This document shows, in pieces, positions 11,686 through 31,888 of a stretch of 36,876 bases of DNA. A program made the position numbers and the translations under genes. The first letter of the stretch is position 1; every line of letters starts with the position of its first letter. The notes under the pieces were generated by a model. The model saw only the letters and a list, made by a program, of their open reading frames with translations. It was not told the origin of the DNA and did no database searches. The DNA lies in the IMG/VR virus record IMGVR_UViG_3300021964_000203, positions 1 through 36,876 of that record. One strand, given 5' to 3'. The DNA is from a virus.

Positions 11686-12043
11686 GCAGTCTCTCTACCC
11701 AATATTGAGATAAAGTTTCAACACGTGAGATACCCCCCTCCTCTATGTGAAGCATTTGTGTCGGTGCTAAAAACAAACCAAAATGTGTTATTAAATTTGA
11801 TTTTATTGATCTAAAAGCTATTACATCATAGTTTTTTGCTTCTGTCAATTTTACTTTTACAGCACACGTTGAAGCCCATTCATCAACATGATTAGTTGTA
11901 AATTGCTTCATCCAATCTCTAGATTTAGGATAGGAAGGTAGGGGAAAGTCAATTGATAGTTCTTTTATATAGAATTTACGAATTAATTCAATACAATCAG
12001 TCTCTCCGTATTCATGTTTAATTCCTAGATATTTCTGTACCAT
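11654..12043 (-). CDS. NlpC/P60-family tail tip protein (first copy)
   Basis: This 129-residue protein has an intact NlpC/P60 triad: C17 in YGETDCIELI, H87 in LITHFGLFL and H99 in MLHIEEGG. The length is that of a single domain. It is translated just before a second, diverged NlpC/P60 gene and after the radical SAM gene, with overlaps of 32 and 19 bases. The family cleaves peptides of cell-wall peptidoglycan. Phage members sit at the tail tip and help local wall penetration or tip assembly. Of the two copies this one has the more canonical active site, so I expect it to be the active enzyme. Confidence 0.85.
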   Translation of the reverse strand: MVQKYLGIKHEYGETDCIELIRKFYIKELSIDFPLPSYPKSRDWMKQFTTNHVDEWASTCAVKVKLTEAKNYDVIAFRSIKSNLITHFGLFLAPTQMLHIEEGGISRVETLSQYWVERLHAFYRHESMV

Positions 12044-13209
12044 TCTGCTAACTCAGGAAAAGTAGTTTCAAAAGATTCGTTTCTATATAAATCAAGTATT
12101 TTATTATATTGCTTAAATTCTTGAGCTAAGTGAGAATCATCATTTGCTTGCATATGTCTAAGAGAATCAAAAATAGTATTTACTTCGTATTTACTAAAAA
12201 TATTTACGTTATCTCTTAAAAACTCTTTATAACTTGAAATTACAACTTTTTTTGTTTCTTGATCTAAAATACTAGATGAAAGATAATTAGGGTGTACTAA
12301 ATTAGTAATATTAAAATCTTTACCTAATTTTTTAATCCATTTAAGCAAATCAAAATTAGATGAAATAGAATAGACACTGCTTACAATGGAAAATGTAGAA
12401 ATATAAGGTAAAAATCTTTTAACATTTGATTCAAATAAGGACCATTCTAATCCTTTTCTGCCGTACTCTGCTCTGAGCTTATACCCTTCAATACTAGGCC
12501 AAAGATCTACTTTTTTAAAATCTTTCCATAAATCTTCTATGTTGTAACTTTTAAAAATTCCGTTATAAGATAAATTAGTATTGTAAGTTAATTCGATATT
12601 TTTACTACAATCGTTTTTAACTAAAAATTCTAGCATCTTATAATGACCTTCTTGAACAAAAGGCTCACCGCCTGCAAAATATATAACTCTAATATACTTC
12701 TTAATTACTTCAATATCATTCCAAAAATTGTTATTATCTGTCCAATAATCAAAATGATTAGGGTCAGTCTCTTTCATGAACCCATGAAACTTTGCTTCTT
12801 TTGACCAAGAAGAAGAAGAGAATGAACCACACATTCTACATTTAAAGTTACACAGGTTTCCGAATCTAAAATCAATATAAATCGGTGGAGTAGTTACAAA
12901 TCCGTCTTTTTCAGTTTCATCATATTTAAAAGAATAATGAGAAAATCTATTATTCATTTTAAGACGATGACTCTGAATACCATTCTTCTCCCAGTCATAA
13001 CAAATTTTACATGCAGAAGGTTGATTTCCCTTAAGCATTTCTACCCTAGTAGATTTCATAAAAGGATGATTAAAAGCCTCTATTGGTGATTGACCTTTTG
13101 CAAAAGTATTACCTTCTTCGTGATAAATTGAAAAACAACAAACACCGTAATGACCTGATAAGTCACCGTATTGATGAATCCATGGAAGTATGCATCTTGA
13201 ATCAGACAC
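12025..13209 (-). CDS. Twitch-domain radical SAM protein embedded in the tail tip operon
   Basis: From GTG at 13209 the protein has 394 residues. The radical SAM cluster motif is C120, C124, C127 (GNLCNFKCRMC), followed by FAGGEP at 178-183. Before it lies an N-terminal cysteine block, C6 (CILPWIH), C24/C25 and C67/C70 (CKIC). This is the arrangement of N-terminal twitch-type radical SAM proteins, in which these residues hold an auxiliary iron-sulfur cluster. A longer frame reaches 13299 but would read through the conserved end of the gpL-like gene. The GTG overlaps the gpL stop in GTGTCTGA. The gene then overlaps the first NlpC/P60 gene by 19 bases. The substrate is unknown; the placement suggests a tail protein. 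Confidence 0.85.
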   Translation of the reverse strand: MSDSRCILPWIHQYGDLSGHYGVCCFSIYHEEGNTFAKGQSPIEAFNHPFMKSTRVEMLKGNQPSACKICYDWEKNGIQSHRLKMNNRFSHYSFKYDETEKDGFVTTPPIYIDFRFGNLCNFKCRMCGSFSSSSWSKEAKFHGFMKETDPNHFDYWTDNNNFWNDIEVIKKYIRVIYFAGGEPFVQEGHYKMLEFLVKNDCSKNIELTYNTNLSYNGIFKSYNIEDLWKDFKKVDLWPSIEGYKLRAEYGRKGLEWSLFESNVKRFLPYISTFSIVSSVYSISSNFDLLKWIKKLGKDFNITNLVHPNYLSSSILDQETKKVVISSYKEFLRDNVNIFSKYEVNTIFDSLRHMQANDDSHLAQEFKQYNKILDLYRNESFETTFPELAEWYRNI

Positions 13210-15130
13210 GAGGAATAGTTCTCCCAGTGGAAGGGAAACCGCCAAAATGTATTTGATTATTACGAAGTGTACAAGAAAGAATTGATTTGCCACAAACATC
13301 GCCTGAAGCGTCAGAAGCTATTTGGTTATTTGCGGCAATAGGATTTGAATTGGCAGATAAGGAGGTCCCAGGAATGGTACCACCTGCTGGACCAGGATAC
13401 TGACACTCAGCACCTTTATAAGTCCATTGACATGTATTTTTATAATATTTGCGTTTTGGAGTTTGAAGTTTAAAATATTGAAGCCATGAAATTAAATTAA
13501 AGGTAGCAACAGAGTCATTTAATTTTTCTAGTTGATCAATTTTAAATCTATCTTCTATGTAAGACTCTGAATCAGCTTCGCTATTAATAATATAAATTGC
13601 TGATCCAAATGAGGTATTTGCATCAAGCTCGTTAGATAAAAATAAAAAAGAATTTCTCTCAATAGATTGAATTGTTGCTTCGGTATCTCCTGTAGAGGAC
13701 TTAACATTATCACCTACTCTGTATGGAAGGGTATTATAAACTTCAATTACATTCGAATTAACTGATTGAACTGAGCTATATTCTGGCCAATAATCTAAAA
13801 AGTTTGCAAATGTTGTTTGTATTTCTACTATTCCTCCTAGTAAATCACGAGAATCTGATTTTTGTTCTGTCCACGTACCTCCTACAGATAAAGTCTCTGT
13901 TCTTGTAAAAGATGCATTTGCTTTTCCATAGGTCGAATCGATAATAGATTGAGAAAAACTAAGTCCATTAGCACGAGCACGAGTTAAAGAATCAAACGCT
14001 TCATCTCCTACTGAACCTACATCAGAGGGATCTGCGTCAACAGTTCGGGGATCAATTCCGTGAACAAATTCACCATTAACTAATGCCACAACAGAGTTAG
14101 AAGAGTTATTACCTGTTATAAAAGGATCTTCAACTAATCTAGTAATAATATTGTCCACGTTAAAAATATCAATAGTAACTTCTTCAATAGCGCCTTCAGA
14201 GCCTTGAGAAATTGTTGATGAATTTACTGGAAACGGTATGAAAGAAGTACCGCCGTAAGAAACATTGTAAAGTATATCTGAAGTTAGATCTCCAACAATC
14301 TCTGCAAACCGAATAGGAAAATCAACAGGCCATGCTCGACCAGCTCCTTGACCTGTAGGATTGCCAGATTTATTTGGTGGATACCACTCACCAGGATAAT
14401 AAATAGAGTATAATCGAACAACAGGATTTTGAGTAAAAGCATTTTTTTCGGCTTTAAATGCACTTTGAGCAATAGAAGATATTGTAGCTGTAGCAGTTGT
14501 AACATTACCAGCATAAACATTACTTAAATAAGTATTAGCAGTTGTTAATAATCCGTCCCCTTCTAATGAAGGAGTAACTAGTTTGCCTCCACTTGTATAA
14601 GCACTGTAACCACTTCCATCAGTGTACCCATATGAAGTACCCGCAGCATTGCTGACAAGAATCTCAGCTAAAGCTACAGTTCTTCTACCAACACCAACCA
14701 CCGATTTACTACCATTAATTTCAGTCATGCCACCAACATCAGAAATAGTTACAGTTGTGGGTGCAGGAATAAGAGTATTCCCAAAAGTAGGATTAGCGTC
14801 AATAGCTGATGAAGGAATGCTATGTGGGTGTCGAGTTGTAATTAATACTCTATTTTGATTATCTGACTGAACCTCTGCGTTTGTTATATCAAAATAGTAA
14901 TTATCAGCTTCTATAACAGTTTGAGTACTAATAGTGTTTGATTGAATATCTTCTGACGAAGAAAACTCTTGTTGAAGGTTATTGAGTTTAACTTTTAGCT
15001 GATTTGTAGAAGTATCAACGTTTGCAATTATACCTGTTGTTCCAGTAGTAACTCCAATAATAGAATTAGTACTTTGGAACCCAGAAGCATCATCAACTGT
15101 TAAAATCACATCATAAGCACGAGCGCTCAT
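13202..15130 (-). CDS. Minor tail protein gpL-like, with four-cysteine iron-sulfur motif
   Basis: The C-terminal 100 residues match lambda gpL. Cysteines at 567 and 576 (CQWTYKGAEC) and at 613 and 620 (CGKSILSC) are followed by NNQIHFGGFPSTG. Lambda gpL is known to carry an iron-sulfur cluster, and these four cysteines are the expected ligands. The protein is 642 residues, much longer than lambda gpL (about 230). The extra N-terminal 400 residues are beta-rich and fibre-like (VTTGTTGIIANVDTSTNQLK and onward). The ATG starts in a TAATG overlap with the gpM-like gene. Its order after gpM and before the gpK functions follows lambda. It should form part of the tip cone. Confidence 0.85.
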   Translation of the reverse strand: MSARAYDVILTVDDASGFQSTNSIIGVTTGTTGIIANVDTSTNQLKVKLNNLQQEFSSSEDIQSNTISTQTVIEADNYYFDITNAEVQSDNQNRVLITTRHPHSIPSSAIDANPTFGNTLIPAPTTVTISDVGGMTEINGSKSVVGVGRRTVALAEILVSNAAGTSYGYTDGSGYSAYTSGGKLVTPSLEGDGLLTTANTYLSNVYAGNVTTATATISSIAQSAFKAEKNAFTQNPVVRLYSIYYPGEWYPPNKSGNPTGQGAGRAWPVDFPIRFAEIVGDLTSDILYNVSYGGTSFIPFPVNSSTISQGSEGAIEEVTIDIFNVDNIITRLVEDPFITGNNSSNSVVALVNGEFVHGIDPRTVDADPSDVGSVGDEAFDSLTRARANGLSFSQSIIDSTYGKANASFTRTETLSVGGTWTEQKSDSRDLLGGIVEIQTTFANFLDYWPEYSSVQSVNSNVIEVYNTLPYRVGDNVKSSTGDTEATIQSIERNSFLFLSNELDANTSFGSAIYIINSEADSESYIEDRFKIDQLEKLNDSVATFNLISWLQYFKLQTPKRKYYKNTCQWTYKGAECQYPGPAGGTIPGTSLSANSNPIAANNQIASDASGDVCGKSILSCTLRNNQIHFGGFPSTGRTIPRV

Positions 15131-16734
15131 TAGTCAAAAACCTCTTGAAGTGTAAACGATACAGTATAATAGTTATCAATTAACCGTGAGCCTGTAGAAT
15201 AGGTTTGTTCAATAGAAAGGGGGCCTGAAAATCTTGTAGTTATTGTACCAGTTTCATTGATGTGTGCCAAGTCAAAACTGAATGATTCAAATTCTCCGCT
15301 TCTAGCATTATAAAAGTTTTCAATCGCAGTTTTTTCAACACCAGTTATTGCTGTATATGAAAGTTGATAGTTTCGCTTAGAGCGACGAGACTTTAAGCGA
15401 CGTTTCTCATAACCTGCCTGTGAAGTAAAAGTCGTAACATCAAATTGACGCTGTGACTCAATTCCGTTGTCAGGTTTACGATCTATCATCGATGTAAAAC
15501 GATCAAGAGTTGAAGTAGGAGAGTCAAAAACTCTTATAGAAAGTGTATCAGTTTGATCGATAGATCCAAGTGGAGCTCCAGATTGAATAGTAAGTGCTGA
15601 AGTATTACCAATTGGTTGAATTGATTCAGAACGGTAGCGAGTTGCATGAGCTAAACGAGCAAAGGACACATTACCAGTTAAAAGTTCAGAACCCCCTACT
15701 GTTGATGAACCAATAGTTACATTACCTCCAGTAGCTGTTTCAGCCTGATAATTAAGATGACCTACATTAACATTATTAACATACAATCTTAGATTTGACA
15801 CGTGAGAATCATAAGATACAGCTACATGATAATTCGAACCTCCATTAGCATTACCACCATAAACTTCATTGATTCCTCCCTCAGTAGTGCTTACAACATA
15901 ACCTATATTAGAATTAGATCCCACAATTCGTAACACGTAGTAATTATCTGCATCATCATATCGAGCAAATAGTGTTTGGTTTGAGGTCATTTGAGTTCCT
16001 GTGTCAGGACGAACCCAAGTGTCAAAAGTAAAAGAACTATCTTGCAAGTTAAAATCGTCTGAAGAAGCAATATCTAATACATCATCTGAACCGTCAAAAG
16101 TAATAAACGTATCTGTTCCATATGTAGTGTAGGTAGCAGCTCCTCCTGTTTTAAGGACTGTGTGAGCAGATTCACTTTCATCAGTTATATTAGATGTGAA
16201 GTTTAATAGTAGTTTTGTTGCTCCATTATCTGCAATATCAATTCCTCTGCTACCTAGAACTGTAGATGGCCATACATAGGCAGTGTCTTGTTGATATACA
16301 CCTGAAACAAATACTTGAAAATCTGATAGAGAAGCTACATTAGTGCCCGCTGGCATTGCAAAAGTAACGGTATTTCCGTTTATAAGATATGTGTTTCCAT
16401 CTACAACATCAGCCGCTGTATTAGAATACTCTTGAGCACGAGCAGAAAAAGTTGATCTTAGTGTACGTAACTTTGATGGAATTGAAACAGTTTGAAGAGT
16501 TAAGTTTGACGCATTTGGAGCTGTTACAAAAGTTACTGTAGCTCCTCCGTTAGATACAGAGTAACCAGTTGTAGCTTGTGTCACACCATCAGCAAAAGCT
16601 ACAATTTCGCCTGAATGATCTGCAGTGCCAGAAAGATTGAATACTGTTTCTGCTCCAGTGTTATTGTAAGTTACTGTAGTAACTACTGGAAAAGCCGTAA
16701 TAGGAGCTGTTGCATTATCTGGATACGTTGCCAT
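15130..16734 (-). CDS. gpM-like distal tail protein with internal LamG domain
   Basis: This 534-residue protein has two short beta modules at the N-terminus (residues 15-85 and 105-155). A LamG/concanavalin-like jelly-roll segment follows at about 165-370, with FTFDTWVRPDTG, YHVAVSYD and LRLYVNNV as typical strands. The C-terminal 120 residues fit gpM/DUF2460-type distal tail proteins (RRSKRNYQLSYTAITG, IENFYNARSGEFESFSF, YYTVSFTLQEVFD). It directly follows the tape measure gene with a TAATG overlap, the standard position of gpM or Dit. The C-domain likely joins the tube to the tip, while the LamG domain is probably displayed outward and may bind glycans. The gpM assignment is by position and partial similarity. 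Confidence 0.75.
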   Translation of the reverse strand: MATYPDNATAPITAFPVVTTVTYNNTGAETVFNLSGTADHSGEIVAFADGVTQATTGYSVSNGGATVTFVTAPNASNLTLQTVSIPSKLRTLRSTFSARAQEYSNTAADVVDGNTYLINGNTVTFAMPAGTNVASLSDFQVFVSGVYQQDTAYVWPSTVLGSRGIDIADNGATKLLLNFTSNITDESESAHTVLKTGGAATYTTYGTDTFITFDGSDDVLDIASSDDFNLQDSSFTFDTWVRPDTGTQMTSNQTLFARYDDADNYYVLRIVGSNSNIGYVVSTTEGGINEVYGGNANGGSNYHVAVSYDSHVSNLRLYVNNVNVGHLNYQAETATGGNVTIGSSTVGGSELLTGNVSFARLAHATRYRSESIQPIGNTSALTIQSGAPLGSIDQTDTLSIRVFDSPTSTLDRFTSMIDRKPDNGIESQRQFDVTTFTSQAGYEKRRLKSRRSKRNYQLSYTAITGVEKTAIENFYNARSGEFESFSFDLAHINETGTITTRFSGPLSIEQTYSTGSRLIDNYYTVSFTLQEVFD

Positions 16735-22172: not shown

Positions 22173-22544
22173 TTAAGTTCTTCCTCTCTGAGTCTTTGCT
22201 AAAGACTCACGTTGTTTAGCTTTATCACTATAATACTTGGACATTTCTGATTCCGCAACCTTTAATAGTTCAAAAACTGTTTTACGGTTACTAATTTCAT
22301 AAATATCCATTATAGTTCCAAGACCACTATAATCTTTACCTAACCAAGTTCCATTCATACCTTCCCAATTGTCGGGCAGAGAATTTAAAAGGATTAAAGC
22401 TTGTTGAGCTTCTAATGGTAAATCAGATGGGTCTTTTGGTATTTGATTTTCATCAACTTCCCAACCCATCTGCTCACACATATCAATATACTGTTCAGCG
22501 TTCATACCTCCAGCGTGTAAAGAGTTCTGGAGGTATTCAGTTAG
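22173..22544 (-). CDS. Tail assembly chaperone, frameshift extension (gpT part of gpGT)
   Basis: This frame has no good start of its own. Its first ATG (22505) is only one base after GGAGGT, and that sequence is tied up in a perfect 8-bp hairpin. It is reached instead by a -1 slip at A AAA AAC (22544-22550), continuing with CTA ACT GAA and onward. The extension adds 123 residues to the 143-residue gpG-like protein, for a fusion of about 266. The part from MNAEQYIDMCEQ is helical and ends in a basic tail (RESLAKTQRGRT). In lambda, gpGT binds the tail tube protein and the tape measure during assembly and is absent from virions. It lies one base from the tape measure gene. Confidence 0.88.
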   Translation of the reverse strand, partial: LTEYLQNSLHAGGMNAEQYIDMCEQMGWEVDENQIPKDPSDLPLEAQQALILLNSLPDNWEGMNGTWLGKDYSGLGTIMDIYEISNRKTVFELLKVAESEMSKYYSDKAKQRESLAKTQRGRT

Positions 22545-22550
22545 TTTTTT
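22506..22550 (-). promoter_or_regulatory. Programmed -1 ribosomal frameshift site with downstream hairpin
   Basis: On the mRNA strand the gpG-like frame ends AAA AAC TAA. The preceding base completes the slippery heptamer A AAA AAC at 22550-22544. Nine bases after it begins a perfect 8-bp stem (ACCTCCAG at 22534-22527 with CTGGAGGT at 22513-22506) with a 13-base loop. A -1 shift leads without a stop into the next frame. Slippery heptamer, spacer length and stem match known tail chaperone frameshift signals. The stem also hides the GGAGGT next to the ATG at 22505. Confidence 0.92.
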
Positions 22551-22972
22551 GCTGCTTCGTCAGCTTTCTTTTTTGAAAACTGCTCAAAGTCATTCATTGC
22601 ATCTGTGATAAATTGGTCAAATACCGTAGAAGACTTGAGCAAGTCAATTGCTTCTTCTTCTGAGTATTCAACTTCTTCATTTCCGTCAGCACCTGAAATA
22701 TCAACTGGAAGTAGCATAGGTAAGTGTTTAATCTTTAGTCCTCGCCAGCCCATGATAGCTTTTCCTGCATAGGCTTCTAAGAAACGATCATTATCGATTT
22801 CTTCTTCTCGTTGACGAGTACGTTTATTGAACTTGAATGTTAGTGATTGGTTGCGAATCTTTAACAGGTCTTCTCTAGTTAAAAAACAAAGATGTACCTC
22901 AAAACCCTCAACATCTGGAAAAGGAATCCAGCTTGTAGTTTCTTTCGCAATTAGATTTTTGATTTTACTCAT
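22541..22972 (-). CDS. Tail assembly chaperone, gpG-like
   Basis: From ATG at 22972 this is a 143-residue protein (MSKIKNLIAKETTSWIPFP). The frame can be extended to a GTG at 23005, but GAGGGG lies five bases before the ATG at 22972 and the upstream part lies in an inverted repeat, so I choose the shorter form. It ends EAAKN with the slippery heptamer directly before the TAA stop. Position between the major tail protein and the tape measure, and the frameshift, mark it as the gpG-type chaperone. It would be made in excess over the frameshifted gpGT-like form. Its ribosome binding site partly lies in a small hairpin (22981-22995), which may tune expression. Confidence 0.88.
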   Translation of the reverse strand: MSKIKNLIAKETTSWIPFPDVEGFEVHLCFLTREDLLKIRNQSLTFKFNKRTRQREEEIDNDRFLEAYAGKAIMGWRGLKIKHLPMLLPVDISGADGNEEVEYSEEEAIDLLKSSTVFDQFITDAMNDFEQFSKKKADEAAKN

Positions 22973-22977
22973 GATTT

Positions 22978-23102
22978 CCCCTCGTAAAATACGAGTGCCC
23001 ATCACATATCTGCTTCTCTAAGGTGAGGGGGAACCTTGATTTGCAAGTGATGGGCACTCTTCTGGTTAAAAAGTGTTAGTGTTCCCCCTCAGAAACACTT
23101 AA
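22978..23102 (-). promoter_or_regulatory. Structured intergenic region with interlocking inverted repeats (candidate kissing-loop/pseudoknot RNA)
   Basis: This is the longest non-coding gap in the window (130 bases from the major tail protein stop to the chaperone start). Perfect inverted repeats are: A, 13 bp (22993-23005 with 23047-23059); B, 11 bp (23024-23034 with 23081-23091); C, 7 bp (23071-23077 with 23094-23100); an inner stem of 5 bp (23020-23024 with 23033-23037); and D, 6 bp (22981-22986 with 22990-22995). B crosses A and C, so the loops of two hairpins are complementary. D overlaps the GAGGGG ribosome binding site (22978-22983) and also one arm of A. Alternative local pairings exist, so the folded state is unproven. 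It may end transcription, stabilise the tail protein mRNA or control chaperone translation. Confidence 0.7.
23068..23102 (-). terminator. Possible weak terminator after the major tail protein gene
   Basis: On the mRNA strand the arms AAGTGTT and AACACTT enclose a 16-base loop, and a run of Ts follows directly, two bases inside the stem and three after it. It begins immediately past the major tail protein stop codon. The stem is short and AT-rich, and its loop can pair elsewhere, so termination would be partial at best. Confidence 0.35.
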
Positions 23103-24374
23103 TTAAGATTTAGCAGCAAAGATTGTTACTTCACCACCTGTGCCTTTATTGGCAGTAGTTTCTTGAGCCACAAAGTTGACTGACATTGAAATTACGTCTT
23201 CAACAGCCAGTGATGGGAACTCAAACTGAACAGCATCAAGCTGGAACGCTACATAAGGAGCAGTTGTCCCACCAATGATGATGTTAGCATTAGATGTTTG
23301 TGCAGAAGCTGTACGAGAATCATTCTGAATGTTTCTCAGGAACTGAGCTGATTCAGTATCTCCAGCACGAAGATACATAGTAGCTGAACCTGTTACAGCA
23401 CGTGTACCAGTGAACTGACCAATTGGTTCATTCAGATTAGCAAGTTCTTCTGGTGTTAAATATGTAATATTGTTATTGTAATCAAAGCTAACAGCTGTAA
23501 CTGGGAACGTATATTTCACATCTGCTCCACCAGCTGAAGGCTGATGATGGAATTCAATTGCGCTCAAACGATTCTTAATGAATGAGTTAGTTCCAACAGA
23601 ACCAGCAACATTCATCTGATTAAATGGGTGATAGTGTGCAGTTACTGTAGCTTCGCTAGCATTTGAGTTAGCAGTTACAGAAGAACCATCATTTAACACA
23701 CCGCCAAATACTGAAATTGCATTATCACGTTGAGTGCTAGTCAGTTCTTTCAATGTTGTACCAAAACCAGTCCATGTTACTGTTGCGATCTCTTCAATAC
23801 CTGCATCAACACTTGCCTGATTAATAGTAGCATTAGATACCTGATAGACAACGTTATCCATCTTAAAGTACATATGGTTTTCAACAGCGGTTGAGAAGTT
23901 TGAACGAGTTGAGTGTGAGCCTGTACCGGCTGCAACATTCGTTGTTTGAAGTTTTCCGCCTGATTCCCAAACTGATTGCTCATCTGTACCATCAGCTACT
24001 TGAGTATTAGATACTAATGACTGCCACATAAACCAGTCAGCTACTGGTTTTACGTTACCTGTCTGAGTTGTACCTGCATCTGTACCTCCAGCAGTAGCAC
24101 CAGTTACTACACCGGTTGGGCGAAGATAAACCTGAAGATTCCAATCTACTGGGTTAATAGCAGTATTAAAACGCTGCTGTGAGCGATCAGGATTTGTACC
24201 TGATTCAAGGCTTGTAATGTCCTGTGTAGCAGAGGTAGATGTAGCTGCAAAACCTGCTAACACTTCAAGTTTCCAAGTGTTTTCTGGGGTCATAGCAGTT
24301 ACTGCAGCACCGTTGAGCAAATCAACAGTGGACATAAAGACCTCTGAATTTCTTTGTAAATTAAGAGATGCCAT
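23103..24374 (-). CDS. Major tail (tube) protein
   Basis: This 423-residue protein lies between the tail terminator and the tail chaperones, the place of the tail tube protein in lambda-like phages. It has one of the strongest ribosome binding sites in the window (AAGGAG before the ATG) and is followed by a structured non-coding gap, both consistent with high expression. The composition is beta-rich, Thr/Asn/Ala-heavy, without Cys. A segment VTATYHPFNQM-like near the middle and a C-terminal DVISMSVNFVAQETT strand pattern fit a tube fold, but I do not recognise a named family from sequence alone. It is larger than lambda gpV (246 residues), so extra surface domains are likely. Confidence 0.8.
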   Translation of the reverse strand: MASLNLQRNSEVFMSTVDLLNGAAVTAMTPENTWKLEVLAGFAATSTSATQDITSLESGTNPDRSQQRFNTAINPVDWNLQVYLRPTGVVTGATAGGTDAGTTQTGNVKPVADWFMWQSLVSNTQVADGTDEQSVWESGGKLQTTNVAAGTGSHSTRSNFSTAVENHMYFKMDNVVYQVSNATINQASVDAGIEEIATVTWTGFGTTLKELTSTQRDNAISVFGGVLNDGSSVTANSNASEATVTAHYHPFNQMNVAGSVGTNSFIKNRLSAIEFHHQPSAGGADVKYTFPVTAVSFDYNNNITYLTPEELANLNEPIGQFTGTRAVTGSATMYLRAGDTESAQFLRNIQNDSRTASAQTSNANIIIGGTTAPYVAFQLDAVQFEFPSLAVEDVISMSVNFVAQETTANKGTGGEVTIFAAKS

Positions 24375-24385
24375 CCCTTTTCTCC

Positions 24386-24838
24386 TTATCCGTCTATTCT
24401 ATAGACTATTGTTAGTTCTACCTCTGCGAGCCCATAAGGAGTGGCTAATCCTTCATCAGTAGAAATATTATCTATGGTTATATCTAATATCCCTTTATCA
24501 GGATTGTCCCCTAATGAATAAATAACATGTTCAATATCTTGAACTAAGCTATCAGAGAGGTTTTGAGAATTATCTTCTCCAAATACGTATGCTCTTATGG
24601 TAACGTCTAATGTTCCTACCGTCAAACTTTTAGAATTAAAATCTCTAATTTCGGTACCAGCGCTGACGTAAATAGATGGAAAATCGTTTACTTCATCTAA
24701 AAACTTCAACTTGCGAAAAACATTATTAAAGAGGTTATTAAAATACGTATATGATGGGTTAAAACCAGAGGTTTCTCCATCAATTTGTTTTAGTTGTGTT
24801 ACTATATACTCTACAATTTCTTTGCGTCTAGATGCCAT
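24386..24838 (-). CDS. Tail terminator protein (gpU-like)
   Basis: This 150-residue protein starts MASRRKEIVEYIVTQLKQID, the helical opening typical of small phage tail terminators. Beta strands follow (FPSIYVSAGTEIRDF, TVGTLDVTIRAYVFG) and it ends AEVELTIVYRIDG. Its size and its place just before the major tail protein match gpU-type proteins, which form the ring that caps the tail tube and joins it to the head. The ATG sits in a TAATG overlap with the upstream gene. Assignment is by position, length and this pattern. Confidence 0.75.
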   Translation of the reverse strand: MASRRKEIVEYIVTQLKQIDGETSGFNPSYTYFNNLFNNVFRKLKFLDEVNDFPSIYVSAGTEIRDFNSKSLTVGTLDVTIRAYVFGEDNSQNLSDSLVQDIEHVIYSLGDNPDKGILDITIDNISTDEGLATPYGLAEVELTIVYRIDG

Positions 24839-26247
24839 TATGTTCTCGTTATATAAAATGCTCTGCTATACAGTCCCTGCACTACTTCACGAACTGTTTC
24901 ACCAACAAATCTGTCAGGGTCTCTTGGAGTATTATTAAATACTCTATAAATAGGGTCATAAAAGAATGCCATAACAGATCTTCTGTAATCTGGTATAACC
25001 TGGACACTCGATCTAAAACGACCTGAACGTTCAGTTAAAATATCAGCAGCCAGTGGTGGCCCTCTTCTAGGGCCTTTTGGCATTTTATCGCCAAGTCTTT
25101 TACGAACAAGAGCTGATATTTGAGCTCCAGAAATAAATTTTTGTGTTTTCTGACGCTGATTACCTTTAACAGCAATATTAAAGCCTGGAATTTTGGAGAC
25201 TTTTGGCTGTTGAATTTTAGTTTTTATTGTAAGAGGGGTCAATCCGCCTTCTTTAAACTCTTCTGCAAAAGCAATTAAAAAACCTAAAATTCTGTCAACC
25301 TTGTCTTTAGAAGTTCCTTTAGCTGAAAGTTCAGCACCTCTTTTTCTTATATACTTATCAAACTCACTTGAAACTTTAAATCCAGCCTTCTTTTGAGTTT
25401 CAAATACTTTTTTTGTTATAGGAGCTAATTTAAAAGAGTTAAAAAGAGAGGGTTTTGGTGTTATAGAAACTCGATATCTTTCTATCTCTCCAGCTTTTGG
25501 AGATTTAGATCCAAAGTAAGCACTACGAAATCGTACATCAAAATATTTATTTAAATATGCTTCATCAAATCTTACACCTGCAAGAGGAGTTGGAGAAAAA
25601 AGCAATTCTTGCGTAGGTTTTTTATCTGCATCTGTTACCTGAATTAACAAAAAGTTTTCAAACTTTTGTTTAGTCTGTGTTAATAAAGCTTCTCTTTGTT
25701 TTATTAAAGAAGGTGAAAACAATAAATTAACGGCAGCAGCACCTGTCAGTCCTTTTGTTCCTCCCTGCCGTAAAGCGCTGGTAACTTCTTCAAATTGACC
25801 TGAAGCTCTACCAATACTTACAGAAGTAATCTCAGGTTCAGCAGTTTGACCTAATCCTTTTAATTTAGCTTCAAAAAACCCTACATTTCTAGCTGCTGTG
25901 CCTTTTAAAACATTAGTCTGAGAAATTCTTTGACCTGTTGTTCGTTCAAATTCATTAACATCAACAACACCGTCAGGAGCTGCTTTAGGTGTAGCAAAAG
26001 CAGCTTCTTGTTGTTTTGTTAGCTTTTTACCAAATCCTACAAGTTCTTCAGATATAAAATCAGATACAATTCGTATAGCAACGTTTCTTAGAGCAGTGGT
26101 TTCTTTATCATATTTTTTACGAAGAGCAAGAGCACGTCCTGGAACAATAGGAGAATTTATATCAACAGTCATTTTTCCTTTGACTGCAGATGATTTACCT
26201 AATGCTGCTAAGTTTGGATTTTTCCTACGTAAAACTGGACGTGCCAC
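24838..26247 (-). CDS. Neck-region protein of unknown family (HK97 gp10-type position)
   Basis: This 469-residue, Lys/Arg-rich protein starts with GTG in a TAGTG overlap with the connector gene. It stands between connector and tail terminator, where head-closure or tail-completion proteins of the HK97 gp10 type are found, but those are usually 100-200 residues. The C-terminal 100 residues (LTERSGRFRSSVQVIPDYR, AFFYDPIYRVFNN) look like the end of such proteins. The N-terminal 350 residues are basic, probably helical and unrecognised. No signal peptide or membrane segment is seen. A fusion or large expansion of a neck protein is my best reading; the position is firm, the function is not. Confidence 0.6.
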   Translation of the reverse strand: MARPVLRRKNPNLAALGKSSAVKGKMTVDINSPIVPGRALALRKKYDKETTALRNVAIRIVSDFISEELVGFGKKLTKQQEAAFATPKAAPDGVVDVNEFERTTGQRISQTNVLKGTAARNVGFFEAKLKGLGQTAEPEITSVSIGRASGQFEEVTSALRQGGTKGLTGAAAVNLLFSPSLIKQREALLTQTKQKFENFLLIQVTDADKKPTQELLFSPTPLAGVRFDEAYLNKYFDVRFRSAYFGSKSPKAGEIERYRVSITPKPSLFNSFKLAPITKKVFETQKKAGFKVSSEFDKYIRKRGAELSAKGTSKDKVDRILGFLIAFAEEFKEGGLTPLTIKTKIQQPKVSKIPGFNIAVKGNQRQKTQKFISGAQISALVRKRLGDKMPKGPRRGPPLAADILTERSGRFRSSVQVIPDYRRSVMAFFYDPIYRVFNNTPRDPDRFVGETVREVVQGLYSRAFYITRT

Positions 26248-27581
26248 TATGAAATAATCCTATATAGATCTAGAATACGGCGAATATGTGGAGGAAAGTT
26301 TCCAGCTAAAGGATAATTATCTCCGCGTTCTCCCTCAAATGAGAAACCTTTTTTCTCTTGATCTTGTTTGTAGAGTAGTTTAATCATGTCAAGTGTAGCA
26401 AGTTGAATATCTTGTGGAACATCAGCAGACTCATATCCTGCACGGTATTCTACTTTTACTCCTGAAGGAAATGGTGCAAACGAAGGAGGACCGGATAAAG
26501 TCATTGCTGGATAGTTGTTACGAACTGTTGGGTATGAGCCTCTTACTCCAACGGCACCTGTATCACGAGTTACTTCGCCCATATCACGAGAGAAATTATA
26601 TTCATTTGTAGCATTATGAGCATCTTTTGCTTCTGTAGCACCGTTTTTTCCATCAAAATGACACAGAAATACAGTTTCACCATCTGGTCTAAAACGCTGT
26701 GTTGGAGGAGTAATAGTAGCTTCTTTATATCGAGCTTTATTAGAGAATCTTACTTCATCAATATATCCAGCAAAATTACCGCCTATCTCCACATTTGCTG
26801 TAAAAGTGTGGTTTGATTCAGTATAACTTGCATTAGTAAATAAATTACCATTTAAATGAGTATATAGTCGTTGATTTTGTGAATCAAAAGACCATGCTAC
26901 GTGTGTAAAAAATCTTGGAACATAATTCGCAGTTGTTGTAACTCCTGTACCTCTTACTAAAGTAGCAGCTCCTCCAAAACGACTTTGAAAAATTGTTGTA
27001 TCGTTAGCATCAAAACCAAATTCCATATAATTTGTCGCATCTGTGTTAAATCTGATAAGGTTGTTTTGAGGTGGAGTCGCTTTATCACTGCGAACAAATA
27101 ATTCAACTGTAAAATCACCATCTTCGAATTCTAAATTTTCAGGAATGTCACCTGAAACTAAATCATTTAAATCTACTTCGAGAGAAGATTTTCCAAACTT
27201 TTTTACTCTTGAATTTAAGTGTGCATCGTTTTTAAAACTTAAAGAAACTGCTTGAGTGTCTTGAGTTCTTACAGGGCGCCCAATGGTAGTTGGGTCAGCT
27301 AAAATTACATCCTCTGACCCATTGAACTCTGTTACTTGATATACATTAGAAAGTGGAAGACGAGAAATCATGACAGAGGATTTCCCTCCATCAAATACCT
27401 CTACATAATCATTAGCTAAAATTTCTTGCCCGATATAGTGCTCTACTACACCAGTTGCATAATTGATGATGTTAGATAAACGAGCATCTTGAGTATTGGA
27501 AGAAATGCTCAAGTAATCTTTTACCTGAGCTAGTGTTACATAAGGATATTTTCCTTGATTCTCTTCTAAACGATCTACCAT
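26247..27581 (-). CDS. Head-tail connector (gp6-like) with inserted LamG domain
   Basis: The first 95 residues (YVTLAQVKDYLSISSN, ARLSNIINYATGVVEHYIG) and the last 75 (VKVEYRAGYESADVPQDIQ, IKLLYKQDQEKKG) are the two halves of a gp6-like head-tail connector. Together they match the family's usual length of about 100-200 residues. Between them about 185 residues (110-295) read as a LamG/concanavalin-like jelly roll: FTVELFVRSD, FFTHVAWSFD, LYTHLNGNL and GYIDEVRFSNKARY. Connectors form a 12-fold ring below the portal, so an insert would project around the neck. The reading frame is intact. GAGAGA precedes the ATG. The LamG domain may bind glycans or stabilise the neck. Confidence 0.82.
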   Translation of the reverse strand: MVDRLEENQGKYPYVTLAQVKDYLSISSNTQDARLSNIINYATGVVEHYIGQEILANDYVEVFDGGKSSVMISRLPLSNVYQVTEFNGSEDVILADPTTIGRPVRTQDTQAVSLSFKNDAHLNSRVKKFGKSSLEVDLNDLVSGDIPENLEFEDGDFTVELFVRSDKATPPQNNLIRFNTDATNYMEFGFDANDTTIFQSRFGGAATLVRGTGVTTTANYVPRFFTHVAWSFDSQNQRLYTHLNGNLFTNASYTESNHTFTANVEIGGNFAGYIDEVRFSNKARYKEATITPPTQRFRPDGETVFLCHFDGKNGATEAKDAHNATNEYNFSRDMGEVTRDTGAVGVRGSYPTVRNNYPAMTLSGPPSFAPFPSGVKVEYRAGYESADVPQDIQLATLDMIKLLYKQDQEKKGFSFEGERGDNYPLAGNFPPHIRRILDLYRIIS

Positions 27582-27853: not shown

Positions 27854-27878
27854 AAAAGGGAGGCGATGACCGCCTCCC
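27854..27878 (-). terminator. Terminator-like hairpin after the capsid gene
   Basis: A perfect 8-bp GC-rich stem (GGGAGGCG with CGCCTCCC, arms 27871-27878 and 27858-27865) has a 5-base loop. It is followed on the mRNA strand by TTTT. It lies between the capsid stop and the ribosome binding site of the next gene. This is a good partial intrinsic terminator or mRNA 3' stabiliser, which would raise capsid transcript over downstream genes. Confidence 0.72.
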
Positions 27879-27909: not shown

Positions 27910-29307
27910 TTAACCAGCTTCAACAGTAACAGCATATGGGTACTTAGTAGCATCCAGAGCTGAACTTGCATTGGTTGTAAGAGCTTTAAAGTCAATACGA
28001 GTGCTCATGTACATAGCAGTAACCTGCTGACGTGGTTCGTACTCACTCTCAATCTCGATACCACGACGTTCTGCAATCATAAAGCCAGGCTTATAAAGCA
28101 GGACACCAAGGTCGTTGTTGGTAGAACCGACAACATCCAAGAATTCAGTGATTGCAATTGGAATACCGTAAACGGCACCAACTGAACCTGTGAGGTAGGT
28201 AGCGTTTGGACCAAACTTGTCAACTGTCTGGAAGTCAGAAGTTGTTACAAGGTTGTTATAACCTTCAATAGTGGTAAGGTACACAAGGTCATTACCAAGC
28301 TGAAGACCATATTTACCAAGCTTTGTACGAGCTGCAGCGATGTCTGAAGGATCAGCTTTATCGTTAGCAGAACCAGTGTCAACGGTCAAGCCAGCACCGA
28401 CATCACCTGTCAGGTTAGTGATACCTTCGATGACAGAAGCATAACCAGTACCAGCTGTAATAGCGTTGGTAGGTTGTGCTGTAAAGCCAGTCAAAGCACC
28501 AGTACCACGAAGGATTGACTTATCGATAGCACGTGCTAAACGACGAGTTGCAGCTGCACGCAAGAAGTCGAGCAGAGGAAGAACGGTATCTTCTTCTTCG
28601 TCTTTTGCGAGGTGGGTGGTTGCCATAAACTTGTGTGGAGTAAAGTCCACAGAGCTAATGGTGTTCTGGTTTGAGGTTGGTACGCGAGTTGCATCGGCAA
28701 TGCCTGTAGCAAATGTGCCAGAAGCAAATTGTGCTACATCACCATCGGTGTCTTCATCAGCGACTGGTACGCGGAATGTTTTCGCGTCAACAGATACACG
28801 GTTGAACAGAGGAGCTACAACGAGCTGCTGTTCCATTTCAGTGTAAATGTTGCTTGAGAAGTTGCTAAGGAACTGATCAACAGATGTGACAGCTTTCATA
28901 CGATTACCAATTTTGGTATCGAATACGTCACGTTTGTTAAGCATTTTAGCAAGCATTACAGCATTAGCCATTTCTTTTTCAGAGAACTGTTCCTTACGGG
29001 ACTGTTCTTGATAATGCATTTTTGAACGCTGAAGAGCGTTAATTTCTTCCTGATACTTGCTCATCTGAGCTTTAAGTTCAGCAACTTCTTCAGATTCTTT
29101 TGGGGTATATGCAGTTTTTTCTTCTTTAAGATTCTGCATATCTTGAGCGTCTGACTCTTTCATAATAGCTTCACCGGTCTTTTTAACCAGTTCTGCAACT
29201 TGAGGCTCAGACACTTCAGCTACTGGAGTAGCTTCTTTGTTAACTTCGATATTGGCTTCTTTAGCAACAGTATCGAGGTCGATTGTATCTACGACTTGGT
29301 CAGCCAT
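27910..29307 (-). CDS. Major capsid protein from internal start (HK97 fold)
   Basis: Inside the protease frame, AAAGGAGAA (29315-29323) stands nine bases before an in-frame ATG at 29307. Initiation there gives a 465-residue protein starting MADQVVDTIDLD. It has an N-terminal helical delta-like domain of about 140 residues, including a coiled coil (VAELKAQMSKYQEEINALQR), which the protease would remove after assembly. The HK97-type capsid domain follows. The start falls between the acidic scaffold-like part and the delta part, which is where a separate capsid gene would begin. Nested in-frame starts are known for the lambda protease/scaffold pair C/Nu3. This would let one locus make little protease and much capsid. 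Confidence 0.78.
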   Translation of the reverse strand: MADQVVDTIDLDTVAKEANIEVNKEATPVAEVSEPQVAELVKKTGEAIMKESDAQDMQNLKEEKTAYTPKESEEVAELKAQMSKYQEEINALQRSKMHYQEQSRKEQFSEKEMANAVMLAKMLNKRDVFDTKIGNRMKAVTSVDQFLSNFSSNIYTEMEQQLVVAPLFNRVSVDAKTFRVPVADEDTDGDVAQFASGTFATGIADATRVPTSNQNTISSVDFTPHKFMATTHLAKDEEEDTVLPLLDFLRAAATRRLARAIDKSILRGTGALTGFTAQPTNAITAGTGYASVIEGITNLTGDVGAGLTVDTGSANDKADPSDIAAARTKLGKYGLQLGNDLVYLTTIEGYNNLVTTSDFQTVDKFGPNATYLTGSVGAVYGIPIAITEFLDVVGSTNNDLGVLLYKPGFMIAERRGIEIESEYEPRQQVTAMYMSTRIDFKALTTNASSALDATKYPYAVTVEAG

Positions 29308-30639
29308 GTTGTCGTTCTCCTTTGTAGAATGATCGTGAAGCTCATTAGTCAGACTTTCGTTAGAAACCGTGTCTTCACTTTTTTGAATTTGATTTGATTG
29401 TGAAAGATCATCTGCATTCACATTAAGAACATTATCACAATCATTGCCTTCTGCGTCAACCTCTAAAAATTTAAAGATTGGCGATTGGGCGGTAGCGATC
29501 TTTGCGACCTTGTACATTTTTTCATTATAATTTACAAGGTCTCCATTTTGAAGTGAGTTTGCGTCTGCGGAAAGCAAATTAACAAACGGGATAGACTCAT
29601 TAGGATCACGAGCTACAAACTCGTCTTCTTCTGAATCATCCTTCTCCATCTCGTCTTCAATAGCTTCCTCGGCGTTAGCTTTGACTTCAATCTCGTCAGT
29701 CTCTGCTTTTTCCTCTATATCTTCAACAGTTTTTTCTTCTGTTGTTTCTATTTCGGTTTCAGCAGTAACTTCAAGTTCTGTTGTTTCTACTTCAGCTTCT
29801 TCAGCTTTAGTTTCAACAACTTCCTCAGATTTTGAGTTACTCATTGCTTCCTCCTCGGTTGGAGACATTGGACGTTCGTTAATAACCTCGCCCTCCTCCA
29901 TATTGTGGACTGGAACACCAGACATGGTAATATCATGTGTATGACCTTCGGCCTCCAACACAACACCACCAACAATTTTATGAGCATGGTTTTTCATGTG
30001 CGATGCGTAGGTCGTTACACCATTACCTTTTTCGTCCATTTCGACTGTGTGGTAATGACCGTCGCTCATATCGGTGATTCCTGCTTTTATTTTACGCATC
30101 ATTTTTACTTCTTCTTCAGAAGCTGTTTTTAAAGATTTTTTAAATTCGTTGTACTCATCTTCATTGTCAAAAGATTTACGAATCGAAAATAATGAATCTT
30201 GATTGCAAGGTACAGAGACAACTGAAATTTCTAACAGCTCAACATCTGTAATCAACATAGAATCATCTTCACGATTATATTTACCATCTTTTACTCTGAA
30301 TCCAACGGAAAAGCTCTTAAGAGCTCCATCTCTAATGAGTGTCTGAACGCCGTGATTCTTTTCAGCAGCATCACTCACAGTTCCTTCTACATAAATGCCT
30401 TTCTTATCAACCTTTACTTGGTCAAAGCGTCCAATTGGACAATCATGCTTGTGCTGATAAAGCATAACAGGATTTCGGAGAAAGTTATTTACTCCTTTAG
30501 CCCATGCTTCTGCTGTTACAACATCACCAGCACGATCTTTAACGATAGTATTAGCATAACCCGCGATTTTAAGACCACGAGTTTTTTTAGAAATGCCTTT
30601 ATTTTCGAAAGCACTGTTAAGATAAAATGTTTTATTCAT
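27910..30639 (-). CDS. Prohead protease - acidic scaffold - major capsid protein, one continuous frame
   Basis: From ATG at 30639 (GAGGAAG upstream; ATGAATAA overlap with the portal stop) the frame encodes 909 residues. Residues 20-150 are an HK97-type (U35/S78) prohead protease with QHKHDCPIG (H65 likely catalytic), KSFSVGF (S111 likely nucleophile) and LLEISVVSVPC. Residues 190-245 hold three His pairs (GHYH, NHAH, GHTH). A Glu/Thr-rich acidic stretch (260-345) and a small beta module (350-412) follow. From residue 445 comes a helical delta-like region and then an HK97-fold capsid domain (TEMEQQLVVAPLFNRVSVDA, through IDFKALTTNASSALDATKY). Capsid protein must outnumber protease, so this full-length product is probably the minor one. 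The frame could be opened further to 30696, but this start has the better site. Confidence 0.9.
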   Translation of the reverse strand: MNKTFYLNSAFENKGISKKTRGLKIAGYANTIVKDRAGDVVTAEAWAKGVNNFLRNPVMLYQHKHDCPIGRFDQVKVDKKGIYVEGTVSDAAEKNHGVQTLIRDGALKSFSVGFRVKDGKYNREDDSMLITDVELLEISVVSVPCNQDSLFSIRKSFDNEDEYNEFKKSLKTASEEEVKMMRKIKAGITDMSDGHYHTVEMDEKGNGVTTYASHMKNHAHKIVGGVVLEAEGHTHDITMSGVPVHNMEEGEVINERPMSPTEEEAMSNSKSEEVVETKAEEAEVETTELEVTAETEIETTEEKTVEDIEEKAETDEIEVKANAEEAIEDEMEKDDSEEDEFVARDPNESIPFVNLLSADANSLQNGDLVNYNEKMYKVAKIATAQSPIFKFLEVDAEGNDCDNVLNVNADDLSQSNQIQKSEDTVSNESLTNELHDHSTKENDNMADQVVDTIDLDTVAKEANIEVNKEATPVAEVSEPQVAELVKKTGEAIMKESDAQDMQNLKEEKTAYTPKESEEVAELKAQMSKYQEEINALQRSKMHYQEQSRKEQFSEKEMANAVMLAKMLNKRDVFDTKIGNRMKAVTSVDQFLSNFSSNIYTEMEQQLVVAPLFNRVSVDAKTFRVPVADEDTDGDVAQFASGTFATGIADATRVPTSNQNTISSVDFTPHKFMATTHLAKDEEEDTVLPLLDFLRAAATRRLARAIDKSILRGTGALTGFTAQPTNAITAGTGYASVIEGITNLTGDVGAGLTVDTGSANDKADPSDIAAARTKLGKYGLQLGNDLVYLTTIEGYNNLVTTSDFQTVDKFGPNATYLTGSVGAVYGIPIAITEFLDVVGSTNNDLGVLLYKPGFMIAERRGIEIESEYEPRQQVTAMYMSTRIDFKALTTNASSALDATKYPYAVTVEAG
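29307..29323 (-). promoter_or_regulatory. Internal ribosome binding site for the capsid protein
   Basis: On the mRNA the sequence AAAGGAGAA is followed by a short spacer and ATG in frame with both upstream and downstream coding sequence. It is as strong as the sites of the separate genes nearby, such as the one for the major tail protein. Confidence 0.72.
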
Positions 30640-31888
30640 TGGGTACTTCCTCATTAATAGATTCCTCGGATGAGGGTCTTCCACCTTGAGTAGCATCTGT
30701 AGCGCTACCTGTGATGTTTTGTGGTACTCTTATGTTATCATTATTTTCAAGTTTTGGAAATCTTAATCCTTCACGAGCTTCATTTGGGGTAATAATTCCT
30801 GTATTAACCAGAGTAGAGTAATATACAGCCTGTGTTCTATTATCTGGTTGAAGTGCAGGAACTGAAAGCTTGTCTGGACGAACAGTAACTCCCCCATTAA
30901 AGAAATGTTGAAACGCGGAACAAAACTGAGTTAACATAGGTAGAATAGTATGTTGATAGTACAACTTTTGATTAGCATCAATGTTTGCATTATTACCTGA
31001 TTTTAATAAAACATAAGGCACGCCAAGAGCTTTAGACATATCTTGTTGAATACGTTCAATTGAATTTTCAAAATCAAGCTGGTCGAAAGACTTTGTTGAG
31101 AATTCATCAATCTTTAAACCGCCGTCTAAAATTGCAGGATTACGAGCACCATCAAAAAGAGTTGTATAGTTAGATCTCCAAGATTCTAATAGACGTTCTT
31201 TGACTCGTTTTGATAAAATATTGTCTGTAGTAAGAACAAAACCTGGAAGAGCATTATTTTTAAAGAATTGACGTTGGAACTTAATCATGTAGAAGTAAAG
31301 CTCCATTAAATTTAGAATAGGTTTAAGCTTTGATGTGCCTCTAAAAATTGAATTTTCATTCTCATTCATAACATGAATTATTTCTTGTGGAGCAAACTGA
31401 ATTGATTCAGCCTTACGTGTTTGAGCACCTCTTCCAAAGCCATAATAATCACTTTGTTGTTGGTTTGATACTATATAGTTATAATGAGAAACAAAAGTTT
31501 TTGAATCTGGGACTACTTCCACATCATTTGCTGGGAGAAGGTAGAGATCTGCTCCATCGTAGTAAAAGAAAGCGTTACCATCTAAATGAAAGTCTAAAAA
31601 AGCACGCCTAAAAAATCTAGCTCGGTCTTCAAAGGGGTTCGGTTTTACATTAAGTATCTTATTTACTTTTTTTGAAGCACCACCATCAACTATGAGCGGA
31701 ATCTCATTCATGGCATTAATATTCATTTCAACTGCACGATGGACAACCTCAATCTCACGATAAGCTTGTTCAAAATCTACAATTGTTTCGGGAAGTGCAA
31801 AAGGTTCTAAAGATGAGATTGAGGGTTGTGCTGGATTAAGCTTTTCAGCTGCCCATTCTCTCCAAGTCTTTCTATCTTCATCTGCCAT
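30632..31888 (-). CDS. Portal protein (HK97 family)
   Basis: This 418-residue protein has the hallmarks of the HK97-type portal: an N-terminal EIEVVHRAVEMNINAMNEIP segment, LDGNAFFYYDG, APQEIIHVMNENE, a long helix with a conserved ALGVPYVLLKSGN, and NIDANQKLYYQHTILPMLTQF near the end. It closes with TGIITPNEAREGLRFPKLE. The portal forms the 12-fold ring at the packaging vertex. The length is normal for the family. It overlaps the HNH gene by 11 bases and the protease start by 8 bases, so the packaging and head genes are coupled. Confidence 0.95.
   Translation of the reverse strand: MADEDRKTWREWAAEKLNPAQPSISSLEPFALPETIVDFEQAYREIEVVHRAVEMNINAMNEIPLIVDGGASKKVNKILNVKPNPFEDRARFFRRAFLDFHLDGNAFFYYDGADLYLLPANDVEVVPDSKTFVSHYNYIVSNQQQSDYYGFGRGAQTRKAESIQFAPQEIIHVMNENENSIFRGTSKLKPILNLMELYFYMIKFQRQFFKNNALPGFVLTTDNILSKRVKERLLESWRSNYTTLFDGARNPAILDGGLKIDEFSTKSFDQLDFENSIERIQQDMSKALGVPYVLLKSGNNANIDANQKLYYQHTILPMLTQFCSAFQHFFNGGVTVRPDKLSVPALQPDNRTQAVYYSTLVNTGIITPNEAREGLRFPKLENNDNIRVPQNITGSATDATQGGRPSSEESINEEVPNE

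Follow-up and report, generated by a model that had tools for sequence, protein, structure and literature searches.

A conserved structured RNA with complementary hairpin loops between the major tail protein and tail assembly chaperone genes of a group of mostly uncultured phages

The 36,876-nt virus contig analysed here as a single window (IMG/VR record IMGVR_UViG_3300021964_000203) carries, in the gap between its genes for the major tail protein (MTP, the tail tube protein) and the tail assembly chaperone, what comparison with related phages strongly supports as a real, conserved structured RNA. The best explanation that we can offer for it, to which we would give a probability of about one half, is that of a cis-acting intercistronic element of ~130 nt that governs how accessible the chaperone ribosome-binding site (SD) is and so sets the amount of chaperone relative to MTP. 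We take the element to represent a new RNA family, the working principle of which would be a variant of a kind of device that is already known.

Locus and predicted fold

All of the large genes of the 36.9-kb contig are on the minus strand, with MTP and chaperone in one run of co-directional genes in which the first chaperone gene is followed by a second one and by the tape measure; the second chaperone gene is separate and has its own GGAGG site. Because the MTP and chaperone genes are both on the minus strand, the RNA of the element is read from that strand as well, and a plus-strand reading was ruled out by the orientation of the genes and of the SD. The gap between the two genes is 130 nt long in the window. 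A frameshift or readthrough extension of MTP into it was also rejected, as in the window the MTP frame runs into another stop within ten codons and the gap is not crossed by any long frame, and the tandem stops found at the start of the gap in several relatives likewise count against readthrough.

Other features of the same contig, again on the minus strand, were recorded in passing. A single frame of 928 aa (27910-30696) fuses the head maturation protease (phrog_80) to the major head protein (phrog_10), and two structural proteins (15130-16734 and 26247-27581), one of them the head-tail connector, bear LamG-like (Laminin_G_3) domain insertions. Between the connector and tail terminator genes lies a 469-aa frame (24838-26247) that matched nothing in PHROGs, in Pfam or in the phage collection. 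Two of the genes among the tail genes are Radical SAM-like, one (12025-13299) by a weak Pfam Radical_SAM match that falls below the cut-off (E 1e-5), the other (146-1132) by a CxxxCxxC-like motif alone, without a Pfam match. A classical intrinsic terminator stands within the operon directly after the capsid gene (27854-27878; GGGAGGCG-GUCAU-CGCCUCCC-UUUU), and terminators of a similar kind are present in three relatives (L274-L276), a few kb upstream of the tail-gene element.

The initial annotation had described perfect inverted repeats of 13, 11 and 7 bp in the 130-nt gap, and all three were found where it had placed them: the 13-nt arms at 23059-23047 and 23005-22993, the 11-nt arms at 23091-23081 and 23034-23024, and a 7-nt repeat, perfect as well. 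The minus strand of the gap folds to a predicted -48 kcal/mol (z = -4.3), a value that none of 200 dinucleotide shuffles equalled, and the pattern GAGGGG..CCCCTC..GAGG has a single occurrence in the window, whereas 100 shuffles gave none. The 13-nt arms form stem P1 (Table 1). The 11-nt arms had been said to link the loops of two hairpins through an 11-bp helix; the apical loop UCCCCCUC and the other loop, which contains GAGGGGGA, are indeed present, but the outer bases of the arms are shared with the stems of H1 and P3, so that the helix proper would be ~6-8 bp.

Table 1. Positions of the RNA parts and the flanking genes in the window.
Feature	Position	Strand	Basis or remark
Major tail protein (MTP, tail tube) gene	23103..24374	-	phrog_3575, E 5e-46; stop codon 23105-23103
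Hairpin H1, 7-9 bp, loop CUGAGGGG	23078..23099	-	fold; flanking-stem score against shuffles and swaps
GAGGGG of the H1 loop (SD mimic; 5' partner of the putative kissing helix)	23085..23090	-	58 of 58 representatives
Stem P1, 5' strand GAGUGCCCAUCAC	23047..23059	-	covariation; independent contrasts
Stem P2, 5' strand UUGC	23043..23046	-	2 of 4 pairs with two-sided changes, 97% paired
Hairpin P3 (AAGGU/ACCUU), apical loop UCCCCCUC	23020..23037	-	stem score against shuffles and swaps
CCCCUC of the P3 loop (anti-SD; 3' partner of the putative kissing helix)	23025..23030	-	invariant columns (48 representatives)
Stem P2, 3' strand GCAG, then a conserved asymmetric bulge (AUAU)	23010..23013	-	covariation
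Stem P1, 3' strand GUGAUGGGCACUC	22993..23005	-	inverted repeat; covariation; independent contrasts
Chaperone ribosome-binding site (SD) GAGGGG	22978..22983	-	CUCGUA/UACGAG hairpin can mask it
Tail assembly chaperone gene	22541..22972	-	phrog_313, E 1e-12; ATG 22972-22970

Conservation among related phages

The nearest annotated phages are T5-like and are distant, with identities of 29% for MTP, about 35% for the chaperone and about 40% for the terminase (the range for MTP and chaperone being 29-37%); the two that were inspected have another gene between MTP and chaperone. Closer relatives are encoded by several hundred contigs of IMG/VR, from which we gathered 128 different complete gaps, with 58 representatives that are less than 90% identical to each other. 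Although the proteins of these relatives are down to about 50% identical and the gap varies from 124 to 162 nt, the same architecture is kept in all 128: H1 with its GAGGGG loop, P1, P2, P3 with its CCCCUC loop, and then the SD, GAGG(GG). A single gap (L258) has the A of the H1-loop GAGGGG changed to G, giving GGGGGGG, which can still pair with the U opposite as G-U.

The element keeps the company of one gene pair. In all relatives the gene next to the RNA on its upstream side is MTP, and when MTP was used to look for relatives with the tail gene but without the RNA, every one of sufficient length to be read had it. Scanned with a covariance model, the window and 20 whole contigs each yielded a single full-strength copy; second copies elsewhere were looked for and only weak stem matches (E 0.02-1) appeared, four of which (in the window and in L274-L276) were inspected and proved to be ordinary terminators. 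The sole bacterial-genome match of the chaperone (58% identity) is on a short contig binned as SAR86 (L155) that has the same RNA, and is possibly a clue to the host or possibly a binning error.

Covariation of the stems

Covariation in related phages, which the initial annotation had proposed as a check, speaks for a conserved structured RNA. P1 shows two-sided changes at all 13 of its pairs and is 96% paired across 48 representatives. Taken together, P1, P2 and the loops give 96.1% standard pairs against 82.1% for column shuffles, which ignore kinship. When the partners are slid by 1-3 columns, standard pairs fall to 42-53% for the whole structure (48 representatives), and the covariation score falls from 0.53 to 0.09-0.15. 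Kinship enters with a tree of the MTP and chaperone proteins, on which P1 and P2 yield ~53 independent contrasts, about 45 of them compensated, none opposite and about 8 uncompensated; for the pairs of P1 by themselves, about 42 contrasts go the same way and, again, none the opposite way.

For the stems of H1 and P3, clades mostly have unrelated sequences, yet the complementarity of the strands is kept (examples are AGUGUUU/GAACACU, UUAACUAG/CUAGUUAA and AUAAACUACGC/GCGUGGUUUAU). The mean score of the stem that flanks the H1 loop is 15.4, compared with 7.4 for shuffled sequences and 7.8 when strands are swapped between representatives, and that of the P3 stem is 14.0, compared with 6.5 and 7.7, with none of 500 trials of either kind reaching the observed value in either case. 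On this comparative evidence we judge the existence of helices H1, P1, P2 and P3 to be established.

Probable pairing between the loops

None of the 58 representatives departs from GAGGGG in H1 or from CCCCUC in P3. Across the 48 representatives scored, the contiguous match between the two loops is never shorter than 6 bp, with a mean of 9.1 bp that drops to 8.4 bp when loops are re-paired among representatives (0 of 2000 re-pairings as good); nested folds leave, on average, 97% of the C-loop and 66% of the H1 loop unpaired. Just past the invariant core, two positions change on both sides (GC/AU in one case, AU/UA/CG in the other), and at the second of these edge positions (k = 7) 41 of the 58 representatives are paired, against 21.9 expected by permutation. 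The idea of kissing loops, put forward in the initial annotation, thus has universal complementarity, largely single-stranded loops in the predicted folds and two-sided edge changes on its side. Against these stand the six core pairs, which give no covariation because they never vary, and the edges, whose covariation on the tree is not significant (at k = 6, six supported contrasts, 2.4 the same way and 0 opposite). Since the edge changes amount to few events on the tree and do not reach significance there, we grade the kissing of the H1 and P3 loops as well supported but not proven.

The chaperone ribosome-binding site

The third copy of the motif is the SD itself. In 112 gaps the chaperone SD is GAGGGG in 86, GAGG in 23 and AGGGGG in 3, whereas the 395 starts of other genes at these loci include GAGGGG once and GAGG 19 times, the dominant types being GGAG/AGGA (144); within the window, too, the chaperone is the only gene start with GAGGGG. 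This sequence is frequent at the chaperone and rare elsewhere; one word thus serves both as SD and as loop 1, and loop 2 carries its complement.

Because the SD repeats loop 1, it can pair with the C-loop and also with the pyrimidine-rich 3' end of P1. The C-loop can pair with the SD core, GAGG, in 57 of 58 representatives; pairing of the P1 3' end plus linker with the SD scores 12.6 against 10.6 when the linker alone is shuffled (0 of 300). This latter pairing corresponds to the small hairpin, CUCGUA/UACGAG, that had been described earlier as overlapping the SD and sharing three bases with the 13-bp stem, and it does both. The proposal that the region switches between states fares less simply. 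In its favour, the SD copies loop 1 and its pairing with the P1 3' end exceeds chance, yet the variable flank of the SD does not track the C-loop across the representatives and in 13 of the 58 the SD is reduced to GAGG, so that the switch is best described as plausible but unproven. The spacing from P1 to the SD is only 7 nt in eight representatives, probably too short for the SD to extend as far as the tip of a P1-P2-P3 rod that is intact and not bent.

Discussion

Tails require the tube protein in far larger amounts than the chaperone, and an element of the kind described here would uncouple the chaperone, for which the need is small, from the highly abundant tube protein encoded in the same operon. 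In such a scheme, loop 1 would serve as a decoy for the SD and keep the anti-SD loop engaged: the kissing complex, usually the longer match, would occupy the C-loop and leave the SD free, and, were H1 melted, the C-loop or the P1 3' end could mask the SD instead. The median distance between the first base of the MTP stop codon and the start of the 5' strand of H1 is 8 nt, and for this reason a ribosome ending MTP translation a few nucleotides upstream could be the trigger for such melting. Carried to its conclusion, the argument would make the element a ribosome-sensing ratio device in which the terminating ribosome melts H1 and the anti-SD loop passes from the decoy to the real SD, so that chaperone synthesis falls as tube-protein synthesis rises. 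We regard this more specific version as somewhat unlikely; if true, it would amount to a translational attenuator whose decoy copies the SD and which has become fixed throughout a group of phages.

P1 and what follows it might be taken to suggest control of transcription, with P1 and a U-run forming a leaky intrinsic terminator that reduces transcription of the chaperone and tape measure genes and that the kissing loops modulate or stabilise. We consider this somewhat unlikely. P1 runs straight into CCCUUUUU(UU) in about half of the clades, and the terminators noted above, after the major capsid gene of this operon and in relatives, are consistent with such a role. The element has a GC-rich stem in common with the intrinsic terminators that lie between structural genes in phage late operons. 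However, the U-run is not conserved: in 16 of 58 representatives the 8 nt that follow P1 contain no more than four U, while loops and stems are kept in all, the window's own run after P1 is GUAUUUUA, and a U-run directly after the stem, the mark of an intrinsic terminator, is found in many clades but not in all members. Moreover, a terminator needs no H1, no invariant complementary loops and no matching SD, and it is by H1, P3 and those loops that the element differs from the known terminators.

A strong rod with a loop-loop contact just downstream of the gene with the far more abundant product, in a position kept in all relatives, would also fit a role in mRNA stability, the kissing fold blocking 3'-5' exonucleases and the MTP part of a processed operon mRNA outliving the chaperone part. 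The copying of loop 1 by the SD (86 of 112 against 1 of 395) would then be left unexplained, and we think this quite unlikely. More improbable still, in our estimate, is an operator at which MTP, the chaperone or a host factor binds both loops and controls translation, much as in autogenous translational repression. That GAGGGG and CCCCUC are invariant in all clades, when any complementary pair would kiss, fits a sequence-specific binder, and the conserved bulge near P2 could be read in the same way, but the match to the SD accounts for the invariance of the loops without a protein.

With Rfam 15, neither the window nor 12 relatives gave a match at gathering score, and a known ribozyme or riboswitch class was ruled out on that ground. 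The potC RNA (RF01751), described as 'marine only' (PMC2864571), has a similar long UGCCCA/UGGGCA-type stem above a small hairpin, on the same strand; it was set aside, as it scores 20 bits in the window against a gathering score of 44 (E 0.15) and matches none of 14 relatives. No paper on such an element at this locus was found in a search of the open-access literature. In lambda, the gpG/gpGT frameshift sets the amounts of tail chaperone beside the major tail gene (PMC5009743); here, in contrast, there are two separate chaperone genes and the RNA is an element of the gap rather than a frameshift site.

The closest working principle known to us, by analogy, is that of the repZ pseudoknot. Translation of the upstream frame alters the folding of the repZ mRNA, the pseudoknot activates, and an antisense RNA counters it. 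In both cases an intramolecular mRNA pseudoknot, here a putative one, is placed between an upstream frame and a downstream start, and in repZ it switches downstream translation. As in repZ, two complementary hairpin loops occur in every member (at least six contiguous pairs in 48 of 48, the core in 58 of 58). The repY/repZ loop-loop pseudoknot of the IncI-alpha plasmid ColIb-P9 (Rfam PK-repZ) has itself been described as a translation switch (PMC12370729); the primary work is that of Asano and Mizobuchi (1998), as cited in PMC4652775. The element here differs in its sequence, which is without an Rfam match, in that its loop copies the SD, and in its position between two virion-assembly genes.

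What emerges is a compact RNA fold with good phylogenetic support, which seems not to have been described before and of which each genome has one copy, between the same two genes. The phages that carry it form a broad group, mostly uncultured and known almost only from metagenomes. For phages with one long structural operon, the element is a candidate answer to the question of how tube protein can be made in large quantity, and chaperone sparingly, from the same run of genes.
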